DNA from: Leucobacter rhizosphaerae
GTDB lineage: Bacteria; Actinomycetota; Actinomycetes; Actinomycetales; Microbacteriaceae
NCBI RefSeq assembly: GCF_022919175.1
Contig: NZ_CP095043.1
Location: 2,294,001-2,358,000, forward strand
Direction of reading: 5' to 3'
DNA: 64,000 bases
Part shown: positions 10,513 to 41,794 of the stretch, one piece after another
How positions within the stretch are numbered: position 1 is the stretch's first letter
Layout: the number at the start of each line of letters is the position of its first letter
Position numbers and translations under genes: made by a program
Notes under the pieces: model-generated
Told to the model about the DNA's origin: nothing
The model's input: the letters and a program-made list of their open reading frames with translations, nothing else
Database searches by the model: none

Positions 10513-10776
10513 CCTGCTGGGCTGGGTTGGGTTGGGTTGGGCTGCGATGGGCTGCGCTGAGCGAGTTCACATCGGTGACCTGCCATCCTCTCGCCGACCT
10601 GCCATGTGCTCGGGCTCTGTGAGGTGGCAGGTCGGCGACACGGTGGCAGGTCGGCGACACGGTGCCAGGTCGGCGGAACGCGCGGCAGGTCGGCGGAACG
10701 CGCGGCAGCAAGGGGCTCGGCCCGGACCGCGCGAGCACCGCTGGCGCTCCGGGTCGGCGCGGCCTACGCTGGCAGC
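10513..10776. repeat. Intergenic region: G-quadruplex run plus 19-20-nt interspersed array
   Basis: No gene is supported here. Five GGG runs spaced by two bases lie at 10519-10541, an ideal quadruplex motif on the plus strand, just after the flavin reductase stop. From 10577 to 10708 the octamer GGCAGGTC or its complement recurs about every 19-20 nt: twice inverted (10577 and 10596), then directly at 10625, 10644 and 10683, with a one-base variant at 10663 and a truncated copy at the end. The regular period and inversion suggest a slippage-derived repeat or a protein-binding array. Confidence 0.75.
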
Positions 10777-11468: not shown

Positions 11469-12377
11469 ATGAGCAGCCTGCAGCCGACCACGGTCGTCAC
11501 CGGCGGATCGCGCGGGATCGGCCGCGCCATCGCTCTCCGGCTCGCCTCCGAGGGCCACGACCTCGTGCTCGCGGCGGCCGACGCGCCGATCACGGGGATC
11601 GTCGCCAACGCCGGCGCGATCCGGGCGACCGGCCGCCTCGTCGATCTCGACCCGGCCGATATCGACCCGGCCGATATCGAGGCCGACCTGCGGGTCGATC
11701 TACTCGGCACGATCCTCACCTGCCAGGCGGCGATCCCGGCGCTCGCCGAGACCCGCGGGGCGATCGTCACGATCGGATCCGGCGCGGTGTCGAGCGGCAG
11801 TCCGGGCACGTATGTGCACGACGCCGCGGCGAAGGCGGGGGTCGCGGTGTTCACCGAGGGGGCCGGGATCGATAGGGCCGGGATCGCGATCCTGCTGCTG
11901 AGGCGACGCACGGTGCCGGGCACCATTCGAGTATCGCGGGATCGGCTGGAACTGCAGTGGGGAGAGCAGGCGATGCAGGTGCGACTGGCCGACATTGCCG
12001 CACTGCGCTGTCGGAGTGACAGCGAGTACGCGCGGGTCGTGCTCGTGGCGCCCGGGCGCACGGTGTCGCTGATCGCCGGGCTCGCCCGTGTACCGAAAGG
12101 CGTGCGGTCGCAATCGTCGCAAGTGCCGCAAGTGCCGCAAGTGCCGCAAGTGCCGCCGTTGCCGAAGCTGCCGGCGGAGGTGGTGGAGCGGCTGGAGCGC
12201 GCCGGGCTGAAGCGGGAGGTGTCTCGCCGCGGTGTGGTGATTTTTGCGCGCGTCGCAAGCACTGTCGTCTCTGACGCCCCTTCCACCACTGACACCCCTG
12301 ACGCCCCTGACGCCCCTGACACCCCTGACGCCCCTGACGCCCCTGACGCCCCTGCTGCCCCTGACGCACCCGCCTGA
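11469..12377 (+). CDS. Decayed SDR fragment fused to a PH-like segment with repeat tail
   Basis: The first 25 residues carry an intact SDR nucleotide motif (VVTGGSRGIGRAIALRLASEGHD without interruption to LVLAAA), then jump to the NAG motif, losing about 50 residues that should lie between. The catalytic YxxxK is disrupted (TYVHDAAAKAG). From about residue 150 the protein changes to a beta-rich segment (PGTIRVSRDRLELQW...) resembling a bacterial PH-like domain. The tail holds VPQ repeats and nine D-A/T-P triplets, both encoded by 9-nt tandem repeats. It is probably a remodelled pseudogene rather than an enzyme. Confidence 0.55.
   Translation: MSSLQPTTVVTGGSRGIGRAIALRLASEGHDLVLAAADAPITGIVANAGAIRATGRLVDLDPADIDPADIEADLRVDLLGTILTCQAAIPALAETRGAIVTIGSGAVSSGSPGTYVHDAAAKAGVAVFTEGAGIDRAGIAILLLRRRTVPGTIRVSRDRLELQWGEQAMQVRLADIAALRCRSDSEYARVVLVAPGRTVSLIAGLARVPKGVRSQSSQVPQVPQVPQVPPLPKLPAEVVERLERAGLKREVSRRGVVIFARVASTVVSDAPSTTDTPDAPDAPDTPDAPDAPDAPAAPDAPA
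12121..12156. repeat. 9-nt tandem repeat, AAGTGCCGC x4
   Basis: Four perfect copies of AAGTGCCGC encode the VPQ repeats in the decayed SDR chimera. Because the unit is three codons, copy-number change would not alter frame. Confidence 0.9.
12291..12371. repeat. 9-nt tandem repeat, GACGCCCCT x9
   Basis: Nine consecutive 9-nt units (mostly GACGCCCCT, with GACACCCCT, GCTGCCCCT and a final GACGCACCC) encode the acidic/proline tail of the SDR chimera right up to its stop codon. Slippage would change length in steps of three residues. Confidence 0.92.
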
Positions 12378-12408
12378 ACCCATCCGAGTGAACACACCCC
12401 GTCAACAA

Positions 12409-12476
12409 CTGCGGAGATCTCACTCCTGCAGGAGCGAAAAGGGGGAAATGCTCCTGCGGGAGTGAGATCTCCGCAG
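12409..12476. repeat. 68-nt palindrome, copy A (near-perfect hairpin)
   Basis: Outer arms CTGCGGAGATCTCACTC (12409-12425) and their complement (12460-12476) are followed inward by GCAGGAGC/GCTCCTGC (12428-12435/12450-12457), giving a 27-bp stem with one T-G pair and a 14-nt purine-rich loop. It lies between two convergent genes and shares the GGAGATCTCAC arm with three other copies at 29010, 29816 and 41560. There is no T tract, so it is not a standard intrinsic terminator. Confidence 0.93.
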
Positions 12477-12556
12477 TGTGTGACCCTGCGGGCCAATGGA
12501 ATGGGGCTGGAAGCGTGCTGGAGCGAGCCGCACTCAGCACTCACCACCCCACACCC

Positions 12557-14062
12557 CTACCCCGCCAGCTGCAGCACCCCGTCGACCCGCCGCGGCACGG
12601 AGCGGTCGCCCTCGCGCAGCTCGGCCGGCAGCACTGCTTCGGGCGCGTCCTGCCACACCATGGGCCGCAGGAACCGCCGGATCGCCGTCACCCCCACCGA
12701 GGTGTGGAGCGAGTTCGTCGCGGGCCACGGTCCGCCGTGGTGCTGCGCCCAGGAGACGCGCACCCCGGTCGGGAACCCCCCAAACAGCAGCCGCCCGGCG
12801 ATCGGCGCCACGAGCTCCGCGATCCGCGCGGTGAGCTCGGCCTCATCGGCGGCCGCGTGGATCGTCGCGGTGAGGGATCCCGGAACCACACGCAGCCCGG
12901 CCTCGACCTGGCTGACGTCGGTGTAGCGCACCAGCACCACGAGCGGCCCGAACGCCTCCTCGGTGTGGTCGACGGAGAAGTCGTCGATGCCGACGCTCAG
13001 CACCGCCGCGGCGCTCGAGTACCCGTGCCCGCCGGACTCGCCGCGGGCCAGCTCCGTGACCCCGGCCGCCGACTGCAGCTCGCCGCGCACGCGCTCGAAG
13101 TTCTCGTGCACCCGCTCGCCGAGCAGCACGTGCGGCGGCTGAGCGCCGATCGCCGCGGCGAGCGTCTCCGCGAATCGATCGCCCGCCTCGCCCTCCGGCA
13201 GGAAGACCAGACCGGGCTTCGTGCAGAGTTGCCCGCCCGATCCCGTGACGGACCCAGCGAGACCGGCAGAGAGCGCCTCGCCGTTCGCGGTGAGCGCCCC
13301 GGCGGTCACGATCACGGGGTTCACACTCTGCAGTTCGCCGTAGAGCGGGATCGGGATCTCGCGCCCGTCGATGATCTGCTGCAGCCGCTGGGCGGCCCCG
13401 AGCGAGCCGGTGAAGCCGACGGCGCGGATCGCCGGGTGCGCGACGAGCGCCGCACCCGCGGACTGGCCGTACACGATGCCGACGGTGCCGGCGGGCGCTC
13501 CGACGCGCTCGGCGCCGGCCCGCAGCGCCTCGAACGCGAGCCGCGAGGTGAGCAGGTGCGCGCTGTGCGCCTTGACGACGACGGGGTTCCCCGCGGCCAG
13601 CGCTGAGGCGGTGTCGCCGCCCGGTACGGAGAACGCGAAGGGGAAGTTGCTCGAACCGAAGACCGCGACCGGCCCGAGCGGGATCAGCAGGCGGCGCACG
13701 TCGGGTCCGGGCCCGAGGGGCGTGTCGCCCGCGTGGTCGATCATGGCCTCGAGGAACCCGCCCTCGCGCACGGCCTCGGCGAAGAGGCGCAGTTGGAACG
13801 CGGTGCGGCTGAGTTCGCCGTTCAGGCGCGGATCGCCGAGCCCGGTCTCCTGCCGCGCGACGTCGACGAGGTCGGCTCGGCGCTCCTCGAGCGCGTCGGC
13901 CATCGATTCGAGCAGGGAGGCGCGCCAGTCGCGGTCGCGGCGGGCGAGCTCCGGGGCGGCGGCCGCGGCGGCCGCGGTGATCGCGTCGAGCTCGGCATCG
14001 GTGGTGAGGACGATGCCGGCGTCGGTCGTGACGCCGGTGGTCGGGTTGGTGGTGGACAGCAT
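12557..14062 (-). CDS. 2,5-dioxovalerate (alpha-ketoglutarate semialdehyde) dehydrogenase
   Basis: The 501-residue aldehyde dehydrogenase shows KGSADH-type features: FGSSNFPFAFSVPGGDTASALAAGNPV in the cofactor domain, VGFTGS, the general-base Glu in GELQSVNPV, and the catalytic Cys in GSGGQLCTKPG. The C-terminal HTSVGVTAIRRFLRP is typical of this branch. It oxidises alpha-ketoglutarate semialdehyde, the last step of non-phosphorylative pentose or hexarate pathways. It is the last gene of a long minus-strand sugar locus, with a LacI gene just upstream. Confidence 0.88.
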   Translation of the reverse strand: MLSTTNPTTGVTTDAGIVLTTDAELDAITAAAAAAAPELARRDRDWRASLLESMADALEERRADLVDVARQETGLGDPRLNGELSRTAFQLRLFAEAVREGGFLEAMIDHAGDTPLGPGPDVRRLLIPLGPVAVFGSSNFPFAFSVPGGDTASALAAGNPVVVKAHSAHLLTSRLAFEALRAGAERVGAPAGTVGIVYGQSAGAALVAHPAIRAVGFTGSLGAAQRLQQIIDGREIPIPLYGELQSVNPVIVTAGALTANGEALSAGLAGSVTGSGGQLCTKPGLVFLPEGEAGDRFAETLAAAIGAQPPHVLLGERVHENFERVRGELQSAAGVTELARGESGGHGYSSAAAVLSVGIDDFSVDHTEEAFGPLVVLVRYTDVSQVEAGLRVVPGSLTATIHAAADEAELTARIAELVAPIAGRLLFGGFPTGVRVSWAQHHGGPWPATNSLHTSVGVTAIRRFLRPMVWQDAPEAVLPAELREGDRSVPRRVDGVLQLAG

Positions 14063-28910: not shown

Positions 28911-29009
28911 AGGGGCGCGGCGCCTGGCGCTGCGCCCGCCCCGGCGCCGCCACTGCCCCGGCGCCGCGCCACTTCCTTCTTCCCCTCTTCCCCTTCCCAC
29001 CCCCACTTC

Positions 29010-29077
29010 CGGCGGAGATCTCACGTATAACGGACCATTCCCGGCGAATCGCTCCTCCATACGTGAGATCTCCGCCG
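29010..29077. repeat. 68-nt palindrome, copy B
   Basis: A 19-bp perfect inverted repeat (arms 29010-29028 and 29059-29077, core GGAGATCTCACGTAT) surrounds a 30-nt interior containing CATTCCCGGCGAATCG and TCCTCC, shared with copies C and D. It lies in the 281-base gap after the sugar transporter; the rest of that gap is pyrimidine-rich low-complexity DNA. Confidence 0.93.
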
Positions 29078-29191
29078 TTATTGCGCCGGGGTTCGGCGCG
29101 GCGGCTCAGATCGCCCTCTGATCGAGCGCACCCAAGCTGATCGAGCGAGCGCGACGAGTCGACCTCACCCTCGCGAACATATGCTGGTCGC

Positions 29192-29710
29192 GTGAATACC
29201 CGCGACATCGTCCACGGAGATGAGCCGGCAGAGGCGCGCGCCGAGCTCCTGAAGGAGCGCATCTACCTCTCCTTCACGTCACTCGCTGTGCTCCTCGCGA
29301 TGAGCTCGCACAGCGCGGAGCTCGGGCCTGCAGAAGCACTCACCACCCTGCTCATCACGAACGCCGGCACGCTGCTCGCGGTGTTCCTGGCCGACGTGAT
29401 CTCGGGCATCGCGATCCACGGGCGTCTGCCGACCGGGCCCGAGCTGCGGCACAAGATGCGGGTGAGCTTCGGCGCGATCGGCGCGATCATCACCCCGATC
29501 GCTCTGCTGTCCGTGTCGGTGTTCGGCGGCTGGAGCCTGCAGGTCGGCCTGCGCGCCGCCGCGATCGCACTGGTGGTGGGCCTGGTCGTCGTGACCCGGA
29601 TCGCCATCAAGCGCGTCAAGATGTCGTGGTGGATGAACCTCCTCGTGCTGAGCGCGGCGGCGCTGCTCGGGATCGCGGTTATCGGCCTCGAGCTGCTCGC
29701 CCACGGGTAA
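29192..29710 (+). CDS. Hypothetical four-helix membrane protein
   Basis: This 172-residue protein is not recognised. It has a short charged N-terminus, then about four hydrophobic helices separated by short loops, including AGTLLAVFLADVISGIAIHG and a C-terminal LLGIAVIGLELLA. The GTG at 29192 lies 6 bases after TATGCT, so the transcript may be leaderless. The gene stands alone between palindromes B and C, which end and begin 114 bp and 105 bp away. Confidence 0.75.
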   Translation: MNTRDIVHGDEPAEARAELLKERIYLSFTSLAVLLAMSSHSAELGPAEALTTLLITNAGTLLAVFLADVISGIAIHGRLPTGPELRHKMRVSFGAIGAIITPIALLSVSVFGGWSLQVGLRAAAIALVVGLVVVTRIAIKRVKMSWWMNLLVLSAAALLGIAVIGLELLAHG

Positions 29711-29815
29711 GCCCCGTGCCTGCCGCGCTGCACGTTGCTGCGCCGGTGCCTGCCCTGCCCTGCCCTGCCATGCCCTGCTCCGCATGCCCCGCCCCGCCAT
29801 GCCCCGCGTCACTTC

Positions 29816-29883
29816 CGACGGAGATCTCACCAACAACGGGGCATTCCCGGCGAATCGCTCCTGCGCGCGTGAGATCTCCGTCG
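29816..29883. repeat. 68-nt palindrome, copy C
   Basis: Perfect 15-bp arms, CGACGGAGATCTCAC (29816-29830) and complement (29869-29883), enclose the shared interior CATTCCCGGCGAATCGCTCC. Flanks (CACTTC before, ATTGCGC after) also match copy B. It lies downstream of the membrane gene and upstream of the catabolic island; CCTGCC-type low-complexity DNA precedes it. Confidence 0.93.
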
Positions 29884-29921
29884 CAATTGCGCGCCACACG
29901 GTCCCAGCGCCACAGAGGGGC

Positions 29922-29958
29922 TTGCGCTCACAAATGTAAACGTATACAGTAAACGTAT
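29922..29958 (+). promoter_or_regulatory. Promoter and LacI-type operator of the catabolic island
   Basis: TTGCGC (29922-29927), a 17-bp spacer and TACAGT (29945-29950) form a sigma-70-like promoter. Overlapping it, TGTAAACGTATACA (29935-29948) is a 12/14 palindrome with central CG, as bound by LacI-family proteins, and TAAACGTAT is repeated at 29937 and 29950. The region is strikingly AT-rich for this genome. The LacI-type gene at 34455 is the obvious candidate regulator. Confidence 0.65.
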
Positions 29959-29989
29959 TCATTACCTCGCGACGATGAAGGGCGGCACG

Positions 29990-31506
29990 ATGAACACCAC
30001 TGCAGGAAGCTTCTCGGAACGATTCGAGAATCGATTCACCTCGTATGTCGGTGGGGTGTTCGTAGACGCTTCCGGTGACTCCGTGCAGGTGATCGATCCC
30101 GCGGACGGAGAGCAGTGGGCCGAGCTGGCGGTCGACCCCAGTGTGGTGTCTCGAGCGGTGTCGGCGGCGGCGTTCGCACAGACCGATCCGGCGTGGACCG
30201 GGGATCCCCTGCGACGAGCAGGGGTGTTGCGCAGCATTGCGGACCTCGTGGACGGCAATGCCCAGGAGCTCGCCGAACTCGAGACCATCGCCACCGGCAA
30301 GCCGATCGCGGCAACTCGGGCGGAGATCCATTATGCCGCCACCTGGTACCGCTACTACGCTTCCGCTCTGGAGACTGAGCGTGAGCAGCTGGTCGCGCTG
30401 ACCCGCACGAAGTCGGCGCAGATCCGCCACGAACCGGTGGGAGTGGTTGGAGCCATCACCCCGTTCAACGGAGCATTCTCACTCGGTACCTGGAAGTTCG
30501 CCCCCGCCCTCGCGGCGGGTAACACCATCGTGGCGAAGCCTCCGGTCGCGTCGAGTGTCAGCACCCTGTTTCTTGCCGAACTCATGGCAGAGGCAGGGGT
30601 GCCGACCGGAGCATTCAACGTCGTGCTCGGGGATCGGGAGGTCGGTGAGCTCCTAGTGGAGGACTCGCGTGTTGCGATGGTGACGTTCACTGGCAGCACC
30701 GCTGCAGGCCGTGCCATCGGTTCCCAGGTTGCTGGCCGCATGGGCCGATTCGTGTGCGAGGCGGGTGGAAAGTCGGCGCACATCGTGATGGACGACGCTG
30801 ACCTCGACAGCGCTGTGATCGCCGCGACGCAGGGCGTCTTCAGCGGCACCGGTCAAACTTGTGTCGCGGGATCCAGACTCATCGTCCACGCGGATGTGTA
30901 CGAAGAATTCCTGGGCCGGTTCATCGCGCACGCCAACCAGCTCGTGGTGGGGGATCCGATGCGTGACGACGTGCACCTGGGGCCGATCGCGACTGCGCAG
31001 CAGTACGACCGGGTCGTGTCGTTGATTGACGAGGCCGTGCGCGACGGTGCTCGCGCCGAACTCGACGGGAGGCACCCGGAGCGGCGGTCGGGGGCGAGGG
31101 CGGCTACTGGGTGGGGCCCACGATCCTCACCGGTGCGGCGGCCGACTCCATGATCTGCCGAACGGAGGTGTTCGGACCCGTCGTCACCGTGCTGCGTGTC
31201 GAATCGTTCGAAGAGGCCCTCGAGGTCGCGAACGCCAGTGACTACGGTCTCGCCGCAGGGATTTGGACGGGATCACAGGCGCGAGCGCATGAGGCCTCGC
31301 AGCGTCTTGCCGCCGGCACGGTCTGGGTCAACACCTACCGGGGGATGGATTGGAGAACCCCCTTCGGCGGGGTCAAGATGTCGGGGATCGGCCGGGAAAA
31401 CGGCCTCGAATCCCTGCAAGAGTTCCGCCACGTCAAGACCGTGGTGCAAGACGTGGCACCAGCTGTCGATCCCTTCGGCCTGGCCGCACCCACCGTAGAG
31501 AATTGA
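29990..31506 (+). pseudogene. Aldehyde dehydrogenase family, interrupted by one frameshift
   Basis: The first part (to about 31090) encodes a typical NAD(P)-dependent aldehyde dehydrogenase with PVGVVGAITPFNGAF, FTGSTAAGRAIG, the general-base Glu in VCEAGGKSAH and the catalytic Cys in GTGQTCVAGS. The last 130 residues (VGPTILTG, EVFGPVVTV, GGVKMSGIGRENG) lie in the -1 frame. Adding one G to the run GGGGG at 31090-31094 restores a continuous protein of about 505 residues. All catalytic residues are before the break. It may be an assembly error or a real inactivating deletion. The ATG at 29990 follows GAAGGG. Confidence 0.88.
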
Positions 31507-41524: not shown

Positions 41525-41559
41525 CGGTCGCGCGGAGGACACCCCCACGGCGCCACTCC

Positions 41560-41627
41560 CAGCGGAGATCTCACGAAAAGCGGAGCATTCCCGGCGAATC
41601 GGTCCTGCATACGTGAGATCTCCGTCA
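41560..41627. repeat. 68-nt palindrome, copy D
   Basis: Arms CGGAGATCTCACG (41563-41575) and CGTGAGATCTCCG (41612-41624) enclose the conserved interior GGAGCATTCCCGGCGAATCG followed by GTCCTGCAT. Outer CACTCC and GGAGTG also pair. It lies 36 bp after the last gene of the island. The rest of the gap to 41794 is C/A-rich low-complexity DNA (GCACCACC-type) with no gene. Confidence 0.92.
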
Positions 41628-41794
41628 GGAGTGGGCAGCGTCAGGTGTGGGCAGCACCAGGCTCGCGGAGTACAGTGCAGGTGCGGACCCGACCCGGATC
41701 CCGCACCACCGCACCACCGCACCAGGGCACCCCAAGCCCACCGCCGCACCGGGGCACCGCCATGCCCCGAGCGCACCGCACCGAAGGAGCACAC

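Follow-up and report, generated by a model that had tools for sequence, protein, structure and literature searches.

Palindromic repeats and their partner enzymes

Repetitive extragenic palindromic (REP) sequences and similar palindromes have one well-known class of partner enzyme, the HUH-type REP-associated tyrosine transposases (RAYTs). Excerpts from two papers describe REPtrons, which consist of REPs and a RAYT (TnpA-REP), as dispersed intergenic palindromes with a bias towards gene ends, together with an enzyme gene that is flanked by cognate palindromes and co-evolves with them (PMC3733652; PMC8266576). The CGTC repeats appear in one of these excerpts as a palindromic repeat family without a known enzyme (PMC3733652). 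Here we describe a family of 86-bp quasi-palindromes found in a stretch of 64,000 nucleotides of the Leucobacter rhizosphaerae chromosome (positions 2294001-2358000 of a single contig of 3,337,834 bases), called the window below. The family shares the listed features with REPtrons, but where REPtrons have an HUH Y1 transposase, its apparent enzyme is a Vsr-type nuclease of DUF559 that carries an AbiEi-like domain. The window copies are probably non-autonomous members of a two-part, REPtron-like selfish element that uses this unrelated nuclease.

The REPtron is the nearest analogue, and the element works like one but is not one. REPs are hairpins of 20-40 bp with an unpaired GTAG or CGTC tag, whereas the present element is 86 bp long, carries two motifs in each arm and is symmetric almost throughout; even its outer end, CGYCA, falls inside the symmetric part, unlike a REP tag. 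No match to the RAYT-type (HUH Y1) transposase family PF01797 was found in the L. rhizosphaerae genome. The catalytic fold is common to the nuclease and the EDxHD homing endonuclease I-Bth0305I. Unlike that enzyme and its relatives, however, the nuclease has an added AbiEi-like N-terminal domain and whole palindromes on both sides instead of a target-splitting insertion, and no intron or intein context was noticed in the loci read. It differs from the AbiEi antitoxin of type IV toxin-antitoxin systems in its fused nuclease domain and in having many dispersed sites rather than one promoter. It also differs from the Vsr endonuclease and the DUF559 protein VsrA of Caulobacter: VsrA is tied to cytosine methylation, and the word palindrome is absent from the main text of the VsrA paper. 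Among the open-licence PMC titles and abstract starts that literature searches returned, none mentions palindromes on both sides of DUF559 or Vsr-like nucleases, and a description may be in print elsewhere. Since the REPtron enzyme was not found, size and tag differ, and no paper joining the nuclease to palindromes came up, the element is rated as a separate kind of system, for which we infer cutting and mobility.

The palindrome family of L. rhizosphaerae

The four copies in the window are listed below. Neighbouring genes were called with our own script, and E-values refer to a covariance model built from 30 genomic copies.

12400..12485, no strand: copy A, 86-bp quasi-palindrome with exact 11-bp arms, between the convergent genes 11469-12377 (+) and 12557-14062 (-); model match E 2.9e-22
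29001..29086, no strand: copy B, 86-bp quasi-palindrome, tandem genes on either side; model match E 6.7e-21
29807..29892, no strand: copy C, 86-bp quasi-palindrome, tandem genes on either side; model match E 5.0e-18
41551..41636, no strand: copy D, 86-bp quasi-palindrome, tandem genes on either side; model match E 7.3e-19

The initial annotation had described four palindromes of 68 nt with conserved arms. The arms are real: GGAGATCTCAC and GTGAGATCTCC, 11 bp each, are exact in all four, with the distance from GGAG to CTCC fixed at 60 bp. Nine arm matches with at most one mismatch occur in the window, where the chance mean is 2.34 and none of 100 shuffles reached nine. The interior sequence that it had noticed in copies B, C and D was likewise confirmed, as the common centre CATTCCCGGCGAATCG. 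Its length and copy number had to be corrected. Both symmetry and per-position information extend 13 bp past the GGAG...CTCC core and then drop to background level, and the element is therefore 86 bp; genome-wide there are nine exact copies and 30 with at most three mismatches, while the pattern read backwards gave none at either level. The view that this is a dispersed intergenic palindromic repeat family of the REP type or of the type of miniature inverted-repeat transposable elements (MITEs) stands.

The covariance model finds 38 distinct places in the genome at E <= 0.01. Three of them (484117, 1449718 and 1609649) belong to another palindrome family, which leaves 35, five beyond the 30; the sequence was read for one of these five (30020). 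According to a simple gene caller of our own the 30 copies are intergenic, except that one extends 5 bp into a called gene. Ten lie between convergent, 16 between tandem and four between divergent genes, compared with 1, 15 and 5, respectively, for the window spacers of at least 86 bp (n=21).

Each half-element in the L. rhizosphaerae genome approximates CGYCAMTYNYGGCGGAGATSTCACNNATGMMGGA, in which two direct TCAC-N6-MGGA-like motifs stand 18 bp apart. The layout is M-M-centre-M'-M', that is two direct motif copies per arm, a variable centre and the mirror image. Two Microbacteriaceae genomes display it plainly, as TCACCGAGACAGGA-GATC-TCACCGAGACAGGA. The predicted hairpins of the window copies are strong (-34.5 to -57.2 kcal/mol).

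The claim that arm changes are compensated holds in part. Among the 30 copies 72.0% of the cells are paired against 68.8% in shuffles, and there are 99 two-sided changes against 75.5, values that none of 500 shuffles reached. The number of further pair types is ordinary (68 against 65.4, equalled in 133 of 500 shuffles), and at many variable stem positions only about every second copy in this genome is paired. Covariation is strong in related palindromes of two other genomes, judged from 17 full-length copies out of 21 (77.6% against 65.1% paired, 87 against 39 two-sided changes, 0 of 500 shuffles). The shuffles leave the relatedness between copies in place, and copies born recently as perfect palindromes would produce the same pattern. 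Arm complementarity is kept partly by paired changes, significantly so in L. rhizosphaerae and strongly in the two relatives. The annotation had staked its reading on further genomic copies and covariation among them, and both are present.

The exact pattern occurs in 2 of 398 genomes of the family Microbacteriaceae, and model matches in 25 of 41 Leucobacter genomes. A scan for a looser pattern, using one genome per species, returned 54 stretches. The titles of 52 name Microbacterium, Leucobacter or Microbacteriaceae; the other two are an Actinomycetota metagenome-assembled genome and a Spirosoma. The latter, from Spirosoma arboris of the Bacteroidota (L124:3947-4004), is a palindrome of repeated ACGGAGA units that fits the looser pattern and may be a remote instance of the design or a repeat with no connection to it. 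When 81 proteins neighbouring copies in relatives were compared with 60 here, only two strong matches emerged (77% and 88% identity), so most copy places are not common across species, while two may be. In L099, L101, L106, L129 and L138 copies often form groups, at intervals of about 140-250 bp that contain no called gene.

A nuclease gene bracketed by the palindromes

A search for a REP-associated nuclease, suggested by the initial annotation, was successful. Outside the window, model matches at chromosome positions 28988 (E 5e-13) and 30020 (E 3e-9) bracket a DUF559 gene. This family-1 unit, palindrome - nuclease gene - palindrome, covers 28988-30105 (about 1.1 kb), and its flanking palindromes are two diverged copies of the dispersed family. 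Searching the genome for members of the same clade gave three full-length DUF559 genes at E <= 1e-10. All three are bracketed by palindromes that differ in sequence and are the same in design. The family belonging to the gene at 2980770 has 17 copies with at most three mismatches (control 0). The family core of the gene at 373213 has 14 matches (control 1), some of which look unrelated; five were read in context. A fourth, weak DUF559 match at 2764733 (E 2.7e-4) lies outside the results of the clade search and is flanked by a palindrome on a single side. Adjoining it is a 56-bp quasi-palindrome with a GGTCACTTTGGTGGGG arm (L144:1761-1816).

The product has a predicted AbiEi-like N-terminal domain and a C-terminal nuclease domain of the Vsr / I-Bth0305I type, in which the nuclease residues do not vary (40 of 40). 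The fold and the conserved acidic and histidine residues place the catalytic domain in the EDxHD / Vsr type, with EDxHD as the probable name of its motif. For six of the nuclease proteins NCBIfam has no family, and PADLOC gives weak AbiEi matches in two of six proteins.

Bracketing across the genus and beyond

Similar arrangements were found among the neighbours of copies in other genomes. Two pairs of copies bracket one gene in L099 and L114 and two copies bracket another in L090, all of them PF04480 (DUF559) genes and together three of nine neighbours scanned. Among ten more neighbours scanned two are DUF559: a bracketed gene in L088 and the gene adjoining the L107 copy. Across the genus, DUF559 matches number 112 and come from 47 of 54 genomes; 60 of them, mostly the strongest, were read with wide flanks. 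Similar quasi-palindromes sharing at least ten 9-mers stood on both sides in 16 of the 60, and at none of 215 other positions taken from these stretches; with at least one shared 9-mer the numbers were 20 of 60 and 6 of 215.

The flanks were also compared by local alignment in both orientations. At a score of at least 20, pairs were found for 18 of the 50 genes in clade A, for none of the ten in clade B and for none of 400 controls; the corresponding counts are 20, 1 and 3 at a score of at least 18, and 27, 1 and 38 at a score of at least 15. About a third of clade A is thus clearly bracketed. Clade B is the sister clade of SRMETLLR type, ten proteins sorted by eye. That every PF04480 protein carries palindromes is ruled out, clade B having none at 20 and one at 18.

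The sequences of the flanking palindromes differ widely among the loci of the genus. Among 98 arms from 26 chosen loci 67 have a clear internal direct repeat, with a period of 18 in 50 and 19 in seven; only 3 of 490 shuffled arms gave a period of 18. A class-wide search with a clade member gave matches in 9 of 118 genomes, L. rhizosphaerae included. Beyond the genus 9 of 18 loci read score at least 20 in both orientations, a count made without matched controls; eight belong to further genera of the Microbacteriaceae and one (L242) to a different family.

Pairing of nuclease and palindrome

The pairing of nuclease and palindrome within genomes is well supported. Using one dispersed copy per genome and 39 same-genome pairs in all, the best same-genome DUF559 flank scores above the 99th percentile set by 1410 other-genome pairs for 10 of 21 genomes, and beats the flank of every other genome for eight. 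Protein identity and palindrome similarity are correlated over 25 loci (Mantel rho 0.29, 0/999); a few close pairs, including some from one and the same chromosomal site, account for part of this. The number of model matches per genome, compared with the presence of any DUF559 gene, is weakly informative. A same-genome test based on shared 11-mers (24/29 against 400/2161) did not compare like with like and gave way to the percentile test.

The nusG-rplK site

The presence or absence of the gene can be followed at one conserved site. nusG was found in 50 of 54 genomes, and rplK lies inside the stretch for 13 of 30 nusG loci examined. The spacer is 192-308 bp in seven of the 13, two of which (G408 and G398) carry a lone near-perfect palindrome of other sequence, and 391-670 bp in four. 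In G435 and G096 it is 1325 and 1340 bp, with a DUF559 gene inside. DUF559-filled spacers of 1405-1559 bp are also found in G253, G405, G429, G323, G208 and G417, and longer filled gaps in G419 and G440. Palindrome pairs around the gene are clear in G253, G405 and G429 and weaker in G323; the others are not clear at the threshold. The comparison is evidence of gain or loss at a single site and does not speak to how it happened.

The nusG-rplK spacer (L315-L344) looks like a hot spot, containing DUF559 genes, lone palindromes of other sequence (G408, G398 and G409) or other genes depending on the species. The units at L177, L187, L216 and L220 have the outer motif CACCGAT in common while the inner motif varies, as if recognition changes stepwise.

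Proposed mechanism and alternatives

The copies, their architecture, the bracketing of the nuclease, the matching within genomes and the presence or absence at the nusG-rplK site are all seen by computation; binding, cutting, mobility and a repair route would connect them as follows. The autonomous unit would be palindrome - nuclease gene - palindrome. In each arm the AbiEi-like domain would bind two neighbouring motifs (TCAC-N6-MGGA in the present family) set 18 bp apart, with probably four nuclease subunits on one palindrome. The Vsr/EDxHD-type domain could then cut in or beside the palindrome, and repair of the break may copy palindromes or the whole unit into new intergenic places and would tend to renew the complementarity between the arms. 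A broader proposal, advanced tentatively, is that this is an undescribed class of mobile DNA. In it, a fast-evolving AbiEi-EDxHD nuclease would recognise motif pairs with an 18-bp spacing within a palindrome of four sites, and would copy palindromes and itself by cutting and by fold-back or recombinational repair that renews arm symmetry. Such elements would exist in many specificities, several per genome, and in more than one family of the Actinomycetes.

Several observations weigh against a selfish element of this kind. No offset stood out as a target-site duplication across 97 copies, although old copies may have lost it. Two near-identical genomes displayed no insertion polymorphism at nine locus pairs, which were picked because both genomes carry a copy there; three length differences of at least 25 bp were seen, none of them a palindrome. 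At the strict threshold 32 of 50 clade-A genes are without a clear pair, and these may be decayed, domesticated or below detection. In the window, copies B and C bracket an open reading frame (ORF) of 172 amino acids (29192-29710, +) that has no Pfam match and is not DUF559. The right palindrome of the family-1 unit (30020-30105) overlaps the 3' end of the ORF (29181-30077, our own call), so this nuclease gene may be altered. Family 1 also fails the same-genome test (16 against 18), owing to the divergence of its flanking copies, both of which the model still finds.

The best surviving alternative, which we regard as unlikely, is that the DUF559 protein is an AbiEi-type DNA-binding regulator or autorepressor, with the palindromes as its operators and the nuclease domain incidental. 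According to one study (PMC3985639) the promoter of AbiEi contains an inverted repeat to which the protein binds, and here too an AbiEi-like fold and palindromes flanking the gene are found. Operators would, however, hardly be expected to stand on both sides of the gene, to favour gene ends over divergent spacers as the 30 copies do, or to change family and place from genome to genome, and an incidental domain would hardly keep its nuclease residues invariant.

It is rather improbable that the system is a defence or addiction device, with a nuclease directed against DNA and genomic palindromes that serve as decoys, protected sites or anchors. The AbiEi relatives do belong to abortive-infection systems, consistent with the weak PADLOC matches, and Vsr-type nuclease domains occur in defence proteins as described in part of a published survey (PMC3710099). 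Yet the neighbours vary by locus and no recurring partner gene was seen, judging from gene calls and with no profile search for AbiEii, and the fast change of families and the intergenic scatter fit selfish spread better.

Ordinary MITEs moved by an unrelated DDE transposase, with the DUF559 gene as a passenger caught between two copies, would account for short, palindromic, intergenic repeats in many copies. They would not account for one gene clade being repeatedly bracketed by unrelated palindrome sequences of a single design, nor for nuclease similarity and palindrome similarity going together. That no target-site duplication stood out may tell against them as well, and no transposase was found among the proteins scanned beside copies, the genome-wide transposase search being limited to Y1. 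This explanation has little probability.

A family of structural RNAs or bidirectional transcription terminators is very improbable: strong predicted hairpins, gene-end bias and covariation would suit it, but it needs neither two motifs per arm at an exact 18-bp spacing nor a bracketed nuclease, and the conserved RNA structure considered in the initial annotation is not supported, given four motif copies conserved at fixed spacing, many variable stem positions that are unpaired in this genome and no Rfam match at gathering thresholds in the window.

One further repeat in the window, overlapping inverted repeats of the TGGCAGGTCGGCGA type at 10572-10671, is apparently unrelated to the palindrome family.

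Significance

Under the two-part selfish element favoured here, an unrelated nuclease would be tied to its own palindromes by a simple 18-bp rule that recurs over unrelated sequences. This would yield natural nuclease-site pairs with long recognition sequences that are directly testable. It also gives a candidate role for a subgroup of DUF559 proteins, and would connect homing endonucleases, AbiEi binding domains and REP-like repeats.
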